From the IMG/VR virus record IMGVR_UViG_3300048026_000404, positions 1 to 27,316 of that record: a DNA stretch of 27,316 bases; one strand, 5' to 3'. Origin of the DNA: a virus. Positions 2,998-26,786 of this stretch are shown here, in pieces; the first letter of the stretch is position 1; each line of letters begins with the position of its first letter. A model generated the notes under the pieces. That model did not search any database and was not told the origin of the DNA. It saw only the letters and a list, made by a program, of their open reading frames with translations. The position numbers and the translations under genes are program-made.

Positions 2998-4637
2998 GGT
3001 GTCACCGCAAAGTCAAAAACTAGTGGGTCAATTTGTCCGTAAACGGTGTTGAAGTCCTCGGGAGCACCGAAACCAGAAGTCACACCCGAGTTAGTAATAT
3101 CAAATCTGTCTGACCAATTGCTAGGAAGATCCCACTCATTGTAGCCAGACCGCATTAAACCAAAATCTACTCTCCACTCTATAACATCAGAATCAGATAA
3201 TCCAACTCCAAATCCTGACATTTGACCAGTACCGCCATCTGTAAGTCTATCGTGTAGATTGTTGTAGTTTAGGGAGCCACCCATGATCATAGATGCATAC
3301 AGAGTAGTGTGATATAATATATTTCCAGGCACGCCAAAATATACTCGACCTTTCTTCAAAACTTTTTGACCATTCACTGTAGTAGCAAAGTAATCCATCT
3401 TAGGTCTAAATGACAACGCCTGGGCTGAGTCTGTATTTGAAAGTTGATGACCGGATTGTCTTTGCATGATAGTGAATTTTTCTTGTCCACCATTTGAGGA
3501 GTACTGAGTGCTATTAGAAACGCTTAGTGTCTGTACATTTCCAGCTTCATCATACGCTTTATATTTGAATGTTGGTGCAGGCGCCCAATACATATTGTCG
3601 AATAAATTGATAGGTGGCGCAATATATCCAGTACTAGGTATTTTCACGTCTTGGTGAACAAGCCCGCTGAACCAATATGTACTAGTACTATTCAAGTCGC
3701 ATCTAAATCTACGAGAGTATGTCACTGGTGGGTCTTCTGGATAATATACAGGCGCAATTTCTCCGTGACCCAATTGTGCATTGTCTGGTATATAGCCAGT
3801 ACCACTTGATCCGTTGAACACAGGACATCTTTTTAGACCACCTGTTTGAAACTGACCTGCGGGATCTTTCTTTAGATACAGTTTAGATGTAGTGAATCCT
3901 GTTTGAGTGTACTCGTATTCTTGATACTCAGTGTTGCTATTTGGACTTATAGCTTGAAGTTCAAACGTGTATATGCCGCTAGGACGCATTATCATATTCT
4001 GAAGTATCATTGGCTTGAATAGATTATTTGCGTGTGCGTATCTTTTTCTAACTTCGTACTCTGACCATTGGGCACTAGTAGCTACGCCACCATCTAGCGT
4101 AACGAATGATCTCCACTTCTGCGCTAAAGAAGTACTAGGCGAATAGTACCCAGGCATCTGCCAGAATTTCCAGTTACCAGGAAAAAGAACTCCGTTCATT
4201 ATCTGATACAGATCGTTCAGAAAGCCGTCAGTGCTACCACCAATCTGATCTTCGATAACATCTGCGATAAGATAACAATTCAAAGCCGTAGCCATTCCGT
4301 AAGACTGTACTTGTGCAGTAGTAGTTGGGTTTGCAGTTTTGAAATCTTCCATCAACTGCGCCACATACTCTATAGAATCCATCGCTCTATTGAACGTGGT
4401 GCTGTATGCGTTTGATGAAGTAATTATGCCATTTCTTATTTCAAGAAAGCGCAAAGCGTCAGTAAATGAGGGCAAGCTAGAATCGTTGGCTGAAATTCTA
4501 CCCACTCTTCTGCTAGTTCCTGGTATAATCAATCTAGAGGTATTCAGTTTATCGCCTGAGTAACCAAAGTCAGAGTCTATACTACCTCTGGCCATGTTCA
4601 TCAGAGATACGCCTTTATAGTTCTTTATTCCAGACAC
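2994..4637 (-). CDS. Large tail/fibre structural protein (547 residues)
   Basis: Rich in S, T, G, N, Y and aromatic residues with few cysteines and no catalytic motif, as in phage tail-fibre or baseplate wedge proteins. The N-terminal 50 residues (NYKGVSLMNMARGSID...) look like a short attachment module; residues 60-150 are helical; the remainder reads as beta-rich. GTG at 4637 is preceded by AGGAG and shares its G with the TAG of the upstream gene; the end overlaps the next ATG. Coupling to the NlpC/P60 and gpJ-like genes argues for a virion location. I do not recognise a named family. Confidence 0.6.
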   Translation of the reverse strand: MSGIKNYKGVSLMNMARGSIDSDFGYSGDKLNTSRLIIPGTSRRVGRISANDSSLPSFTDALRFLEIRNGIITSSNAYSTTFNRAMDSIEYVAQLMEDFKTANPTTTAQVQSYGMATALNCYLIADVIEDQIGGSTDGFLNDLYQIMNGVLFPGNWKFWQMPGYYSPSTSLAQKWRSFVTLDGGVATSAQWSEYEVRKRYAHANNLFKPMILQNMIMRPSGIYTFELQAISPNSNTEYQEYEYTQTGFTTSKLYLKKDPAGQFQTGGLKRCPVFNGSSGTGYIPDNAQLGHGEIAPVYYPEDPPVTYSRRFRCDLNSTSTYWFSGLVHQDVKIPSTGYIAPPINLFDNMYWAPAPTFKYKAYDEAGNVQTLSVSNSTQYSSNGGQEKFTIMQRQSGHQLSNTDSAQALSFRPKMDYFATTVNGQKVLKKGRVYFGVPGNILYHTTLYASMIMGGSLNYNNLHDRLTDGGTGQMSGFGVGLSDSDVIEWRVDFGLMRSGYNEWDLPSNWSDRFDITNSGVTSGFGAPEDFNTVYGQIDPLVFDFAVTP

Positions 4638-4912
4638 TACTGAACTCCTATAACTAAGACTTCAACATTCGATAGTGATGTGGTGGGCATATTTGTGCCG
4701 TGAGCAATATCAATGGATGTTATGTAGATATTGTTATTTGTGGCGTTATATGTTGGAAATATTCTACGAGTGTAATTAGTGTTTACCAAATCGTAAGCGT
4801 CACCATAAATCACTCCACCAATTTTCAATAGTAGAGATGTAGGATTTGATATCGGACTAGTTCCTATTAGAACTGTATTTGTCTGTAGTGTTGGTATAGA
4901 TGCTGATGGCAA
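4637..4912 (-). CDS. Small putative virion protein (91 residues)
   Basis: The composition (S, T, N, I rich, almost no acidic residues until the C-terminus) resembles small beta-structured tail proteins. The start is TTG at 4912, with GGAG six bases upstream; no in-frame ATG fits. It ends sharing one base with the next GTG. The sequence has no recognised domain; a role as a small fibre-associated subunit is inferred only from position. Confidence 0.55.
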   Translation of the reverse strand: MPSASIPTLQTNTVLIGTSPISNPTSLLLKIGGVIYGDAYDLVNTNYTRRIFPTYNATNNNIYITSIDIAHGTNMPTTSLSNVEVLVIGVQ

Positions 4913-18257: not shown

Positions 18258-18265
18258 CATAAATA
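18258..18265 (+). promoter_or_regulatory. Candidate late promoter (CATAAATA) for the lipase island
   Basis: CATAAATA on the plus strand, 30 bases before the lipase ATG; fits the NATAAATA late consensus of T4-like phages. No sigma70-type pair is visible on this strand here. Confidence 0.5.
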
Positions 18266-18294: not shown

Positions 18295-19032
18295 ATGAAC
18301 TACGAATCACAATGTCATCGAATGGCTTTGATGGCACAATATGCTTATCTTGACGGCAAGGAAGCAAAGAAACTATACACTCCCCTAGGCTACAAGAACT
18401 ACAAATTCATAGAGAACGATGGCGCTCAGTGCCACATCATGTGGAACAAAGAAGAGTTCATCATAGCATTTAGAGGAACTGAACCGTCAGAGTTTTCTGA
18501 TATCAAGGCAGACCTAAACGCTTTGCCAGATAGAGCCAACAACGGCTCTGGTTGGGTACATAATGGATTTCAAACTGAAGTAGATAAAATCTGGGATAGC
18601 ATCAACGAACTTCTGTCAAACGCAGAAGGTAAGAAAGTATTCATTTGTGGACACTCTCTTGGTGGTGCAATGGCAACTATCGCTACTAGTAGATTAGATA
18701 GCATGGTAGATGCACTGTATACTTATGGCTCACCCAGAGTAGGAACTAGAAAGTTTACAAAAAGCTTTTACACTCCACACTTCAGACATGTCAATAACAA
18801 CGATGTTGTACCTTCTGTACCATTTGCTGTTATGGGATATGTACACCACTGTCCATCTAGATACATCAATTACTACGGCAACATTAGAAACATGTCGTGG
18901 TGGCAGAGAGTAAAGGATAAGTGGCGTGGTAGAATTCGTGCATGGCAGAAAGGCGTTCCATTTGATGGAGCATATGACCACGGTATGAATCACTACGTAA
19001 AGTATACGGAGTGTAACGATGGAACTGATTGA
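18295..19032 (+). CDS. Class 3 lipase (alpha/beta hydrolase)
   Basis: 245 residues, one of few plus-strand genes. FRGTE (60-63 region) is the oxyanion-hole motif of Lipase_3 enzymes; GHSLGGA holds nucleophile S121; NNNDVVP holds D170; and YDHGMNHYVKY supplies the catalytic His (H229 or H233). No signal peptide is seen, so it acts in the cytoplasm unless released at lysis or via a holin. It probably cleaves acyl chains of phospholipids or related lipids. GGAG precedes ATG. It overlaps by 14 bases the first of three small membrane protein genes, suggesting a membrane-disrupting or lysis-related cassette. Confidence 0.9.
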   Translation: MNYESQCHRMALMAQYAYLDGKEAKKLYTPLGYKNYKFIENDGAQCHIMWNKEEFIIAFRGTEPSEFSDIKADLNALPDRANNGSGWVHNGFQTEVDKIWDSINELLSNAEGKKVFICGHSLGGAMATIATSRLDSMVDALYTYGSPRVGTRKFTKSFYTPHFRHVNNNDVVPSVPFAVMGYVHHCPSRYINYYGNIRNMSWWQRVKDKWRGRIRAWQKGVPFDGAYDHGMNHYVKYTECNDGTD

Positions 19033-19384
19033 TAGACTATTAGGCGACACCCTTTGGATCTATACAGCGATCTTAGGATCTGTATTTGGTGCCGCTTTTC
19101 TCGCATACTTCAAAGACACTAGAGCAGGACTATGGTGCTATGCCAAGTTTGATAGTGTATTAGATTTTGTGAGAGATCGTTATGGGTGGACATGGTTTGA
19201 TCAGCCAACGGATGCATGGAGAAAAAAGTATCCGCATGTCACCAAAAAAATTGATGACTTAGAAGACCGTATTGAAGAGTTAGAGGAGATGGCACATCCA
19301 TCTAAAGACCTCTGTGAATTTGCGGGCTTCGATGATTTAGAAACTAGAATAAAGGAGTTGGAAAATGAACTGGCTAAAAGGTAG
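19019..19384 (+). CDS. Membrane-anchored coiled-coil protein (121 residues)
   Basis: One hydrophobic segment at residues 12-30 (LWIYTAILGSVFGAAFLAYF), then a Trp/Tyr-rich linker, and a C-terminal coiled coil (KIDDLEDRIEELEEM and LETRIKELENELAKR). This layout of membrane anchor plus coiled coil is shared with i-spanins and other lysis accessory proteins but is not specific. ATG lies inside the end of the lipase gene, GAG upstream. Role unknown; expressed with the lipase. Confidence 0.7.
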   Translation: MELIDRLLGDTLWIYTAILGSVFGAAFLAYFKDTRAGLWCYAKFDSVLDFVRDRYGWTWFDQPTDAWRKKYPHVTKKIDDLEDRIEELEEMAHPSKDLCEFAGFDDLETRIKELENELAKR

Positions 19385-19526
19385 ATTACGTGAGCGTACA
19401 ACGCTTGATGGAGTTGCTTTGGTTGTTGTGGGTGGTATCATTCTACTTGCAAGTCCGCTGGCAACAATCGCCGCTTGGTGTGCTGTCGCATATGGCGCAT
19501 GGACTATCATCAAAAAGGAAAAATAA
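19365..19526 (+). CDS. Small membrane protein, possible holin-type (53 residues)
   Basis: Starts MNWLKGRLRERTTLDG at an ATG with AAAGGAG upstream and ends KKEK. A long hydrophobic stretch (VALVVVGGIILLASPLATIA and on to WTII) could form two membrane segments separated by a Pro. Basic residues flank both ends, which suits small class II/III holins, but sequence alone cannot assign this. It overlaps the coiled-coil gene by 20 bases and precedes the EF-hand membrane protein by one base. Confidence 0.7.
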   Translation: MNWLKGRLRERTTLDGVALVVVGGIILLASPLATIAAWCAVAYGAWTIIKKEK

Positions 19527-19527
19527 G

Positions 19528-19845
19528 ATGTCTGAAGAAGCAAAAACTTATCACCCAGCCGATAGTAACGGAGATGGGAAAGTGTCTAAGGCAGAAGAAG
19601 CAATGTATCTTGAGTTCAAGAGAAAAGAACTTGAAGATCAGGATGCAATGAGAGATGCACAACGTAAGATGGCATGGTTCTCATTATATGGTATGCTGGC
19701 TTATCCAGTGTTAGTAGTAGGCTCTAGCGTAATTGGTCTAGAGAAAGCTGGTGACATTCTAGGAGATATGGCAGGGGTATACTTTATCGCTGTTGCCGGT
19801 ATTGTCGCCGCATTCTTTGGCGCACAAGCTTGGACTAAGAAATAA
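19528..19845 (+). CDS. Membrane protein with an EF-hand-like loop (105 residues)
   Basis: DSNGDGKVSKAE at residues 12-23 is a canonical EF-hand calcium loop pattern (D-x-N-x-D-G...E). It is followed by a charged amphipathic helix (FKRKELEDQDAMRDAQRKMA) and two hydrophobic segments (FSLYGMLAYPVLVVGSS and AGVYFIAVAGIVAAFFGAQA). I recall this architecture from conserved proteins of marine phages. With two membrane segments it is another holin candidate. ATG at 19528 has AAGGA upstream; earlier in-frame start codons exist but lack a site and overlap the preceding gene. Ends at a bidirectional terminator. Confidence 0.8.
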   Translation: MSEEAKTYHPADSNGDGKVSKAEEAMYLEFKRKELEDQDAMRDAQRKMAWFSLYGMLAYPVLVVGSSVIGLEKAGDILGDMAGVYFIAVAGIVAAFFGAQAWTKK

Positions 19846-19869
19846 GAAAAGGGGCTTTCGCCCCTTTTC
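19846..19869. terminator. Bidirectional intrinsic terminator between convergent genes
   Basis: GAAAAGGGGC, loop TTTC, GCCCCTTTTC: 10-bp perfect stem with T-rich 3' arms on both strands. It stands exactly between the plus-strand stop (19845) and the minus-strand stop (19870). Confidence 0.9.
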
Positions 19870-20094
19870 CTACACTTCCTTTTTACCCTCAATCCAATCT
19901 ACACACTTCCACGCAGTGGGCGACCATTTTTGATTAGTAATTGGATCTTTACCATGAAATACTTTACCCTGTACGCCTATCGCTATCGTTTCTATGCAAG
20001 AGTCTCTTGATTTGAAAATAACTGGATGCTTCGATACGAAACACTTATCGTCTATATCTCCATTCAGACATATTAGTACTAGTGCAGTAAACAT
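19870..20094 (-). CDS. Small cysteine-containing secreted-type protein (74 residues)
   Basis: The N-terminus MFTALVLICLNGDIDD is a short hydrophobic segment like a signal sequence, followed by a body with three more Cys (DKCFVS, DSCIET, WKCVDW). Short proteins of this design recur in marine phages; they may be exported and disulfide-bonded. AAAGGA precedes ATG. It lies downstream of the structured region and tRNA-Leu and ends at the bidirectional terminator. Confidence 0.65.
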   Translation of the reverse strand: MFTALVLICLNGDIDDKCFVSKHPVIFKSRDSCIETIAIGVQGKVFHGKDPITNQKWSPTAWKCVDWIEGKKEV

Positions 20095-20332: not shown

Positions 20333-20590
20333 TTACACTTCTCGTAATAGTGCTGAGGCTAACATGATCAACATAACACTATTCAATACTATAAGTGATC
20401 GATCTTTCCATATGATCGATACCCATAACCACAGTGCGGTGCCGACAGCACCAAAACCTAGATCAAGTAAACGCCAGTCAACACCAGCTTGACGAAATGT
20501 AACTGATACTAAAATAGCAACCGTGGCTGCCCATTTCACGTACCATGCAAAGTGTTCTCCATACCAAAAATCGTCAGGCTTCTTTCTCAT
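20333..20590 (-). CDS. Small DUF6552-like membrane protein (85 residues)
   Basis: Three hydrophobic segments (WAATVAILVSVTF, LDLGFGAVGTALWLWVSIIW, LIVLNSVMLIMLASAL) with KW and IIWKDRSLIVLN motifs resemble the small membrane family DUF6552 found in phages and bacteria. ATG has GGAT upstream; the stop is three bases before tRNA-Leu, so the gene and tRNA are probably on one transcript. Function unknown. Confidence 0.72.
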   Translation of the reverse strand: MRKKPDDFWYGEHFAWYVKWAATVAILVSVTFRQAGVDWRLLDLGFGAVGTALWLWVSIIWKDRSLIVLNSVMLIMLASALLREV

Positions 20591-22849: not shown

Positions 22850-22857
22850 TATAAATA
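22850..22857 (+). promoter_or_regulatory. Candidate late promoter (TATAAATA) for the hydrolase
   Basis: Perfect octamer on the plus strand, about 42 bases before the hydrolase ATG at 22899. It physically overlaps the -10 box of the minus-strand promoter at 22854-22882, so the two probably exclude each other. Confidence 0.6.
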
Positions 22858-22898: not shown

Positions 22899-23417
22899 AT
22901 GGTAAAAAAATTTATTGTATTCTTCACTCTTGCTGGTTGCTCCTACGCAACTGTTGAAGCTAGATTGCCAAGATCGATAGACTTGGCTGAAGAACTTATT
23001 GGTCTACACGAAGTCAACGATAGAGACTATCTACGTGAGTATCTGGGAGTAGATCCAGTATACAATGAATGGTGTGCCGCTTTCGTCAATGCAGTGTTAG
23101 CAGAGCATAACATACCTGGGTCTGAATCTGTATCAGATTATCCTCTAATGGCTAGATCGTTCTTGTACTGGGGCGAAGAGGTAGATTCACTATTCATAAA
23201 ACGTGGCGATATCGTTATCTTTCCACGTGAAGGCTGGCAAGGTCACGTAGGCTTTTACGAAAAGACTGTACTGTTTGATGGAGTCCCATACTACAAGATA
23301 CTAGGCGGGAATCAGAAAGACAGTGTACAGTACGAATTCTATAAAGAGAGTGATGCTATAGCAGTTCGACGGCTTGTACTCCAAAGTAAAGGATCAATAA
23401 CCATATCAAGCCTTTAA
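22899..23417 (+). CDS. Lipoprotein-type CHAP/NlpC-like peptidoglycan hydrolase (TIGR02594-like)
   Basis: 172 residues. N-terminal signal with lipobox LAGC (C14), then a hydrolase domain: NEWCAAFVNAVL (catalytic-type C59), DYPLMARSFLYWG, KRGDIVIFPREGWQGHVGFY (H116) and ILGGNQKDSVQ (N138). This order matches the TIGR02594 group of amidase/endopeptidase-like proteins used as endolysins. Export by the host Sec/Lol system would place it in the periplasm tethered to a membrane. The ATG at 22899 has only a weak AGAAAG site. It is alone on the plus strand and its end overlaps an opposing small gene. Confidence 0.82.
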   Translation: MVKKFIVFFTLAGCSYATVEARLPRSIDLAEELIGLHEVNDRDYLREYLGVDPVYNEWCAAFVNAVLAEHNIPGSESVSDYPLMARSFLYWGEEVDSLFIKRGDIVIFPREGWQGHVGFYEKTVLFDGVPYYKILGGNQKDSVQYEFYKESDAIAVRRLVLQSKGSITISSL

Positions 23418-25284: not shown

Positions 25285-25854
25285 CTATTCTCCGTTTAAA
25301 TGTTCTTTCAATTTATTGAAAACGTTAGTTGGATCTGAAACTTCGTAAGGATCTACTGGGCACAATGGCATGTAGTGGTCCTCTTCGTAAGCCTGCTTGA
25401 TCGCCAAGTTATCAACATACATAGCGTAACGCCAACTCCGCTTACCAAAGCCTAGATTACTCTTATCAACAAGATAACCTAGTTTGTCTGCGAACTCACC
25501 ATTACCGTCTGGTAACATCTTGACGTTAGTAATTCCCAAGTCTTTAGCCCACTTGTTCATCACAAAAGCATCGTTTACAGATGTACACCAAATTTCGTCA
25601 ACGCCTAATTTAGAGAAGTCTTCGAACATCGAATCAAATCCAGGCAATTGATTGTTTGAACAAGTAGGTGTAAATGCACCTGGTAGTCCAAAGATAATAA
25701 CTTTCTTACCTGTAAAAAGTTCAGACGTTGTTTTAGTCGCCCAATCGAAAGGACTAGGTCCCTCAATCACACAACCACCAAGTCCATTAGCGTCTTCAAT
25801 CTCTTGACGCATATGAACCACTACGTCTGGTATATAACTTTCCATAAAAAACAT
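25285..25854 (-). CDS. Peroxiredoxin (Prx5-like, AhpC/TSA superfamily)
   Basis: 189 residues. KKVIIFGLPGAFTPTCSNNQLPGF is the PxxxTxxC active-site region (peroxidatic Cys at residue 65), followed by VDEIWCTSVNDAFVMNKW (a second Cys) and MLPDGNGEFADKLGY, as in Prx5. It reduces peroxides, probably with glutathione or thioredoxin. ATG at 25854 is chosen for GAGGAG upstream; a GTG two codons earlier lacks room for a site. An auxiliary gene not needed for virion structure; the glutaredoxin at 16163 may reduce it. It stands between tRNA-Arg(UCU) and the dsbA-like gene. Confidence 0.9.
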   Translation of the reverse strand: MFFMESYIPDVVVHMRQEIEDANGLGGCVIEGPSPFDWATKTTSELFTGKKVIIFGLPGAFTPTCSNNQLPGFDSMFEDFSKLGVDEIWCTSVNDAFVMNKWAKDLGITNVKMLPDGNGEFADKLGYLVDKSNLGFGKRSWRYAMYVDNLAIKQAYEEDHYMPLCPVDPYEVSDPTNVFNKLKEHLNGE

Positions 25855-25873
25855 ATTCACTCCTCTATTATAT

Positions 25874-25950
25874 TGGCGTCCCCGACAGGATTCGAACCTG
25901 TGACCTACGGTTTAGAAGACCGTTGTTCTATCCAGCTGAACTACGGAGAC
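25874..25950 (-). tRNA. tRNA-Arg (anticodon UCU)
   Basis: 77 bases; acceptor GTCTCCG/CGGGGAC (one T-G pair), D-arm AGTTCAGCTGGATAGAAC, anticodon arm ACGGT-CTTCTAA-ACCGT (UCU), T-arm CAGG-TTCGAAT-CCTG, encoded CCA. Its first base is the last base of the stop codon of the gene at 25950. It reads AGA/AGG. Confidence 0.95.
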
Positions 25951-26360
25951 TATTCAATTTCAACAGCATCTTCTAATGCATCATCAGCCGCTTGGTAATA
26001 TACCTCGTAAGCATTGATGATCGATTGCTGTTGCATTATAAATGCCCGTAGATCGGACAAATTCAGTCCAAGGTTTTCGTACCCTTGATCTGTAATGGCA
26101 AAGAAGACCATCGGTCTTCCGTCTGCTTTTAGTTTTTCGACTTCTTCATCGAAATTTTCTGGCGTGAGAAGAGTCCACTTTACGTCACGGCTTTGTAATT
26201 CATCCGCACGTGGAAGAGTCAGCTTAGGCTTCTCAATTGGCTTAGTCGTTACTTCAATCTGTTTTACTGGTGGCTGTAGAAGACTGCAACCGCCCAGAAG
26301 CAAGATAAGTATCGTAAAGCCAAGGGCATTCGCTATTGAACGATTTTGCGCTTTTAGCAT
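25950..26360 (-). CDS. Spanin-like outer-membrane lipoprotein (o-spanin candidate, 136 residues)
   Basis: A signal peptide ends in lipobox LGGC (C25), then a short Pro/Thr/Lys linker (PPVKQIEVTTKPIEKPKL), and a body with VKWTLLTPENFDEEV and MVFFAITDQGYENLGLNLSD. The gene begins inside the upstream coiled-coil membrane protein gene, overlapping it by 107 bases in another frame, as Rz1 does in Rz. The 136-residue length exceeds typical Rz1. GGAGAAAGAG precedes ATG. A conserved family of this type is known to me from marine T4-like phages; spanin role is inferred from the pairing. Confidence 0.6.
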   Translation of the reverse strand: MLKAQNRSIANALGFTILILLLGGCSLLQPPVKQIEVTTKPIEKPKLTLPRADELQSRDVKWTLLTPENFDEEVEKLKADGRPMVFFAITDQGYENLGLNLSDLRAFIMQQQSIINAYEVYYQAADDALEDAVEIE

Positions 26361-26754
26361 TTATCTCTTTCTCCGTCAATTCGGCACCAGACAATAATTC
26401 GAAACAACGTCCCGCTTTATCTGATGCACTGTTTATAACACGTTCTACAAGGCCCGGCTTTGCCGCACCGAGAACACCTAAATCATGTTCGCTGAGTTTA
26501 TCAGCCAGTACTGAATTCTGTCTTCGTATATTTCTAAACTCGGTATTCAATTGTTCGTTGGTTTTCATTGCTAACTCATAGTCAGCCGCCATCGTCTTTA
26601 TTGTTTCCTCGTTAGTAGCTACTGCCACTTCTAACTGAGCGTTGTTCTCATTGAGAACCCTCATACGCTCTTGAGTGTCATTGTAATACCAGTAACCTAC
26701 ACCAGACATCATTGCAATAACTAACATCAAAACTCCTGCTAGTTTGAGTCCCAT
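26254..26754 (-). CDS. Spanin-like inner-membrane coiled-coil protein (i-spanin candidate, 166 residues)
   Basis: One N-terminal membrane anchor (residues 4-24, LKLAGVLMLVIAMMSGVGYW) and a periplasmic coiled coil (residues 28-95, RVLNENNAQLEVAVATNEET, LNTEFRNIRRQNSVLADKL), as in Rz. The C-terminal 60 residues include RCFELLSGAEL and NSECPW. GGAGG lies upstream of ATG and an AATAAATA late box is 25 bases further up. The lipoprotein gene at 25950 starts within it. Together they fit a two-component spanin that fuses inner and outer membranes at lysis. Confidence 0.65.
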   Translation of the reverse strand: MGLKLAGVLMLVIAMMSGVGYWYYNDTQERMRVLNENNAQLEVAVATNEETIKTMAADYELAMKTNEQLNTEFRNIRRQNSVLADKLSEHDLGVLGAAKPGLVERVINSASDKAGRCFELLSGAELTEKEINAKSAKSFNSECPWLYDTYLASGRLQSSTATSKTD

Positions 26755-26778: not shown

Positions 26779-26786
26779 TATTTATT
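26779..26786 (-). promoter_or_regulatory. Candidate late promoter (AATAAATA) for the spanin pair
   Basis: AATAAATA on the minus strand, about 25 bases before the i-spanin candidate's ATG; agrees with NATAAATA. It lies at the stop of the gene at 26785. Confidence 0.45.

Follow-up and report, generated by a model that had tools for sequence, protein, structure and literature searches.

The stretch of DNA analysed here, hereafter the window, is an IMG/VR virus record of 27,316 bases from a marine virus infecting bacteria. Most of its genes lie on the minus strand, and it encodes PhoH, exonucleases, a DsbA-like late transcription regulator (PF11126; 25024-25281, minus strand), tail-like proteins and three tRNAs, a content that would fit a T4-like myovirus. 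Also on the minus strand are a possible further membrane protein matching DUF6552 (50.6 bits; 20333-20590), situated between tRNA genes, and a peroxiredoxin-like gene (phrog_2281; 25285-25860). Between 18295 and 19845 the plus strand carries four small genes in the order LIP, CC, S53 and EF: a class 3 lipase of 245 amino acids (LIP, 18295-19032); a protein of 121 amino acids with one N-terminal membrane segment and a charged, helical or coiled-coil tail (CC, 19019-19384); a membrane protein of 53 amino acids with basic ends (S53, 19365-19526); and a protein of 105 amino acids with a calcium loop at residues 12-23 and two membrane segments (EF, 19528-19845). An earlier note on this DNA had described these genes as coupled by overlaps, which holds for LIP and CC (14 nt) and for CC and S53 (20 nt) but fails for EF, the start of which, at 19528, lies 1 nt past the end of S53. 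A longer ORF of 151 amino acids, beginning with GTG at 19390, was rejected as an alternative start for EF because it is a mechanical extension. Shine-Dalgarno-like sequences, GGAG or AAGGA, precede each of the four starts, and all four genes appear to be under purifying selection, judging from dN/dS values against a single relative (0.11 for LIP, 0.05 for CC, 0.41 for S53 and 0.18 for EF, versus L008). The identities that the note had given to the products, namely a complete class 3 lipase without signal peptide, a coiled-coil membrane protein, a 53-residue membrane protein and a two-segment membrane protein with an EF-hand loop, are all borne out by the protein analysis.

LIP matches the Pfam profile Lipase_3 (PF01764) with 79 bits against a cut-off of 22, and its profile retrieves the solved class 3 lipases of the PDB (E 5e-25). 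Residues Ser121, Asp170 and His229 are invariant in 26 divergent aligned rows, which include the lipase of Prochlorococcus phage P-SSM2; among the matches listed, all 74 distinct full-length lipases have the motif GHS[LM]G and 71 have the Asp motif as written. Profile and triad together mark LIP as a genuine class 3 enzyme, with predicted lipolytic activity. LysB, the lipolytic enzyme of mycobacteriophages, is cutinase-like; no cutinase-type or LysB family occurs among the 13 Pfam matches of LIP, of which Lipase_3 alone exceeds its cut-off. A hydropathy scan detected no hydrophobic N-terminal segment, and LIP, having no export signal, would therefore start its life in the cytoplasm.

The product of CC has one hydrophobic segment, at residues 12-28, followed by a charged helical tail in which residues 66-121 are 48% K, R, D or E. 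A simple hydropathy scan found a single N-terminal membrane segment in 41 of 44 aligned CC rows, in which the mean number of K and R is 1.0 ahead of the segment and 2.7 over the 15 residues that follow; because of this enrichment, the topology is likely to be N-out, C-in. The structural model is poor (pLDDT 68, pTM 0.28), with the tail helical, and weak coiled-coil matches to MYRF_ICA, HSBP1 and XhlA, all below cut-off, were rejected as chance matches between helices. S53 shows a strong hydrophobic stretch at residues 17-33 and a weaker one at 33-49 (mean 1.5), within an uncharged stretch of 34 residues that contains a conserved proline and is flanked by basic ends. Searches with family profiles gave no match of CC, S53 or EF to a described holin family, and single-protein tblastn of CC and S53 against our phage collection returned nothing.

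The loop of EF, D-x-N-x-D-G-x-V-xxx-E, is of the canonical 12-residue type, with ligands at positions 1, 3, 5 and 12, glycine at 6 and a hydrophobic residue at 8. It is present in 49 of 50 EF rows and, under a slightly stricter pattern, in 87 of the 92 distinct EF proteins among the matches listed; of the five exceptions, three are ORF calls truncated at the N-terminus. Mean entropy is 0.35 bits at the ligand positions, 1.95 at other loop positions and 1.09 in the remaining protein, so that calcium binding by this loop is well supported by conservation. The EF profile also matches calcium-binding EF proteins (E 5e-9), and the Pfam model EF-hand_5 scores 14.6 bits, under its cut-off of 25.9. 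Two hydrophobic segments are found in 44 of 45 rows; because K and R lie outside the segments and the loop between them is negative, the predicted topology is N-in, C-in. In the structural model (pLDDT 74) the calcium loop is joined to one long helix that runs into the first membrane segment, and residues 1-20 are unstructured, at low confidence; since the model has no helix ahead of the loop, the modelled protein would be at best half an EF-hand. Fold searches of the PDB gave nothing useful, and those of the viral library gave a single close match, an unnamed protein, with noise after it; no named holin rose above noise in either. The family is also found in bacterial genomes, at 19 loci mostly titled MAG or bin, which from those titles we have taken as binned phage contigs.

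Two further sets of genes in the window are relevant to these proteins. On the minus strand, the gene at 26254-26754 encodes an Rz-like i-spanin (phrog_739, E 4e-13) with an N-terminal membrane segment at residues 3-19, and it overlaps at 26254-26360 the gene of a candidate o-spanin (25950-26360) that has the lipobox LGGC, has no Pfam match, and is the partner of the i-spanin in relatives also; an Rz-like protein anchored at its N-terminus and an overlapping lipoprotein gene are the make-up of a two-component spanin. As these spanins are of Rz type, the hosts are presumably Gram-negative. On the plus strand, the gene at 22899-23417 encodes a CHAP/TIGR02594-like enzyme with a lipobox-like N-terminus, a candidate peptidoglycan hydrolase that scores under both cut-offs (PF05257, 20.9 versus 26 bits; TIGR02594, 61.4 versus 70.55) and has a homologue within a lysis run of a relative (locus L169). 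Among the window proteins scanned, none is recognisable as a holin of the lambda S, S21 or T type.

The three lysis-gene starts of the window, those of LIP, CHAP and the i-spanin, all have a T4-late-type box. The box CATAAATA (18258-18265, plus strand) lies 29 nt ahead of the ATG of LIP, the box TATAAATA (22850-22857, plus strand) lies 41 nt ahead of the CHAP gene, and ATAAATA (26779-26785, minus strand) lies 24 nt ahead of the ATG of the i-spanin; this heptamer we take to be the core of the T4 late promoter. As a signal across the window ATAAATA was rejected, with nine copies found versus 6.4 expected; only its placement is informative. It occurs within 80 nt upstream of four of 50 genes in a greedy gene set, and three of the four are LIP, CHAP and the i-spanin. 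Among the matches listed, the box is found at the operon starts of relatives in 13/35 cases for LIP, 6/8 for CHAP, 10/19 for CC, 15/25 for EF, 14/32 for S53 and 1/7 for the i-spanin, to be compared with 162 among 877 operon starts of other genes and 351 among 20,000 stretches taken at random; as the sequences are related, no probability is attached to these counts. The operon thus has its own late-type box, as had been proposed. The bidirectional terminator proposed along with it is in part confirmed: a strong hairpin stands between the converging operons at 19842-19873 (-17.3 kcal/mol, z -4.0), and its action on both strands is plausible, the T-tract having been flagged for the minus strand only.

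Gene neighbourhoods in relatives bear on function. Four scans of IMG/VR yielded 32 loci for LIP and at least 80 each for EF, CC and S53, families that have hundreds of matching stretches in that database, and the ORFs of the resulting loci (L001-L278) and of the window were searched with profiles of seven genes: LIP, CC, S53, EF, i-spanin, o-spanin and CHAP. Because homology scans supplied the loci, and many of these are closely related, the counts are not independent. In the LIP scan one locus was dropped because the contig end cuts its lipase (L031); of the remaining 31, 29 have CC no more than 3 kb away on the strand of LIP and 29 likewise have S53, or 12 of 13 each after removal of near-duplicates, the exceptions being L032, which has EF, and L033. 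EF was that close in 10 of 31. The co-occurrence of all four genes, which had been suggested as a check, is seen in nearly all of these loci for LIP, CC and S53 and in about a third of them for EF; S53 and EF often occur free of a lipase. Among the matches listed, the 74 distinct full-length lipases have CC nearby on the same strand in 67 cases, S53 in 52 and EF in 22, and 26 of them have a spanin gene that is encoded on their strand at a distance of up to 3 kb; the commonest orders are LIP-CC-S53 (16) and LIP-CC-S53-EF (14), followed by i-spanin-o-spanin-LIP-CC (9) and S53-i-spanin-o-spanin-LIP-CC (7). Where a locus has both an o-spanin and a lipase gene, the two adjoin or overlap in 23 of 32 cases among the matches listed, a contig present twice being counted twice. 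Of 80 loci of the CC scan, 50 include a spanin or CHAP gene no more than 3 kb away and 75 include at least one of the other six genes; spanin and lipase are the most frequent neighbours of CC (again among the matches listed). Two runs illustrate this association: in L169 the order is GH19-like endolysin (a member of an endolysin cluster that has a peptidoglycan-binding domain and matches GH19 weakly), i-spanin, o-spanin, CHAP, CC, LIP and EF; in L183 it is phage lysozyme, S53, i-spanin, o-spanin, a nuclease-like gene, CC, EF and LIP. Small membrane proteins are thus part of these lysis runs, CC and EF in the former and all three in the latter, and of others too.

How should this arrangement be interpreted? 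The likeliest explanation, to which we assign a probability of roughly two in three, is that the four genes belong to a lysis set and are transcribed late; in this set at least one of the small membrane proteins would serve as holin or holin partner, the lipase would escape through the lesion, the CHAP enzyme and the spanins would complete the work, and calcium could possibly exert a gating effect. A role in exit from the host, already suspected in the earlier note, is strongly supported by the neighbourhoods, because in many relatives LIP and CC share a run with genes for i-spanin, o-spanin and endolysin. The same note's view of the module as self-contained is not supported, since the cassettes of relatives hold spanins and endolysins, counterparts of which lie 3-7 kb from the operon in the window, where spanins and CHAP are scattered, and since S53 and EF so often occur without a lipase. 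It may then be asked whether only LIP and CC form one functional unit, with S53 and EF being independent membrane proteins, for instance a general holin or a calcium-handling protein, inserted beside them by chance. This explanation we regard as possible, if rather unlikely. Among the matches listed, none of the other six genes lies within 3 kb in 51 of 80 loci of the S53 scan and 48 of 80 of the EF scan (29 and 32 having at least one), and after removal of near-duplicates any of the six is present for CC in 38/40, for S53 in 18/44 and for EF in 7/26; the S53 and EF families are much wider than the lipase module. Counting against the lysis reading itself, S53 often neighbours a HesB-like gene where nothing recognised as a lysis gene is within reach. 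EF is found in many other gene settings among the loci listed, and in the Kyanoviridae isolates HTVC008M and Melnitz it lies among tail genes, between gp51 and the tape-measure gene, outside any lysis run. Against chance insertion, S53 directly precedes the i-spanin in several relatives, abutting it in 9 of the 22 loci with both genes; for EF and CC the corresponding count is 32 of 62, and for EF and S53 it is 28 of 55 (all among the matches listed). EF relatives in other isolates also have lysis genes as neighbours: a gene annotated as lysozyme in CRP-207, a spanin2 protein and an endolysin in CRP-345, and a GTA-type holin with a GH108 enzyme in CRP-810. In the last case EF adjoins a true holin, and therefore it need not be the pore itself. 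As a separate observation made by eye, EF lies near exported, curli-like operon genes in L078, L087 and L116 (c8, c34, c27, c16 and c17).

That the lipase is instead an auxiliary metabolic gene, freeing fatty acids and glycerol from host lipids, with the membrane proteins serving only for its anchoring or localisation, seems improbable to us. Such a role would suit an enzyme that begins in the cytoplasm, and the class 3 lipases of two other phages have neighbours of a different kind, a dCTP deaminase gene in Cylindrospermopsis virus RM-2018a and no recognised lysis gene in Xanthomonas phage XacN1. However, lipase genes that overlap o-spanin genes and share runs with endolysins, together with late-type boxes ahead of the operon starts, argue for expression in the late rather than the metabolic phase of infection. 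Some phages do change the envelope of the infected cell by means of small membrane proteins and esterases that act on lipid or LPS, but an envelope alteration of this kind, directed against superinfection or host defence and not leading to lysis, is very improbable here, given the synteny with spanins and endolysins and the negative outcome of a PADLOC search with LIP, CC, S53 and EF. In its available text, a review mentions a lipase or esterase that alters O-antigen (PMC10975011).

Cultured phages can be re-read with these gene families. In the Methylophilales phage Melnitz (MZ577097), S53 corresponds to gp32, the i-spanin to gp34 and the o-spanin to gp35, all annotated as 'hypothetical'. S53 thus lies two genes before the i-spanin, which likewise speaks against chance insertion, the two spanin genes overlap, and the block gp32-gp35 spans 3170-4409 of L279; it was a divergent S53 (from L183) that, used as query, matched Melnitz in the phage collection. 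The EF homologue of Melnitz is gp108. Searches of the phage collection found neither a class 3 lipase nor CC in this phage, and gp33 was rejected as a CC homologue by profile comparison. The paper on Melnitz reports one lysin-like gene and proposes the CsgG curli pore as a pinholin analogue, with no mention of a holin in its available text (PMC9004378). Our matches to S53 and the spanins point to unannotated lysis genes in this methylophage. The class 3 lipase of P-SSM2 lies at 3705-4319 of L281, upstream of gp61 and nrdA; also upstream of these two genes are the spanin block of Melnitz and the i-spanin match of HTVC008M. By this shared position, the P-SSM2 lipase may indicate that a cyanophage has its lysis site at this place too; in P-SSM2, searches of the phage collection found no homologue of CC, S53 or EF.

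Among known systems, the nearest functional parallel, judged by analogy, is that of mycobacteriophage LysB with LysF1a and LysF1b. In their cassette (LysA, LysB, LysF1a, LysF1b), according to the available portions of PMC13056207 and PMC5707550, a lipolytic alpha/beta-hydrolase is encoded beside holin-like proteins, as here. One of the holin-like pair has two membrane segments with N-in, C-in topology and the other a single segment with N-out, C-in topology, which EF and CC, respectively, match in prediction. The one-segment protein, required for efficient lysis (PMC13056207, in part), has basic residues past its segment and a charged helical tail; CC is alike in these respects and could pass as a LysF1b-type protein, a likeness of hydropathy and charge only. 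In contrast, LysB acts on mycolic esters, in a third, spanin-like step of lysis (PMC5707550, in part), and the present set combines a class 3 lipase with Rz-type spanins and an EF-hand protein. No LysB family match was found for LIP among its Pfam matches, and the resemblance is read as functional and non-homologous. With Gram-negative lysis of the lambda or T4 type the set has in common the spanin pair, endolysins and small membrane proteins, and it goes beyond that type in its lipase and calcium-loop membrane protein. The scattering of spanins and CHAP in the window is likewise seen in the lysis genes of T4 and P1 (PMC13056207, in part). In a siphophage of Pseudomonas syringae pv. actinidiae, a lipase gene lies upstream of holin and endolysin, and its authors propose a lysis cassette (PMC12173070, in the available text); that lipase is of the GDSL family with a carbohydrate-binding domain, hence of another family and with other neighbours. 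We read the lipase set as a new form of Gram-negative phage lysis set. A search of openly available literature brought up no account of an EF-hand holin in a phage, nor one of a class 3 lipase within a spanin cassette, which does not prove their absence.

The lysis reading may be put as a sequence of steps. LIP, CC, S53 and EF would be transcribed late, as part of the lysis set, and one or more of S53, CC and EF would act in the inner membrane as holin or holin partner. Once the membrane lesion is triggered, the lipase, having no export signal of its own, would leave the cytoplasm through it and hydrolyse membrane lipids, while the CHAP enzyme, with any endolysin encoded outside this fragment, would cut the wall and the spanin pair would remove the outer membrane. 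EF would bind calcium by a loop that caps the long helix leading into the first of its membrane segments, and calcium entering from seawater could for this reason gate or stabilise the lesion. Carried to its furthest point, EF would be a cytoplasm-facing switch that turns a first small leak of calcium into full lysis, and the lipase, alongside holin, endolysin and spanins, would add a fourth step of lysis that attacks membrane lipids, all this in marine phages that are abundant and infect Gram-negative bacteria; we consider this version doubtful and offer it as speculation. It does raise the question of calcium control of lysis in the sea. Lysis by marine T4-like phages of streamlined heterotrophs is poorly known, and S53, CC, EF and the unannotated spanins are concrete candidates that can be tested, while phage class 3 lipases gain a likely role.

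Two further observations concern neighbouring genes. S53 is repeatedly found near a HesB/IscA-like gene (L238, L229, L019, L023 and others), LIP-CC-S53 loci included. In L124, at 3519-4910, a gene for an IscU-like Fe-S scaffold of 463 amino acids lies between the spanin and CC genes, and it seems, from an impression of its sequence, to be split after the first cysteine region by an intein/Hint-like insertion.
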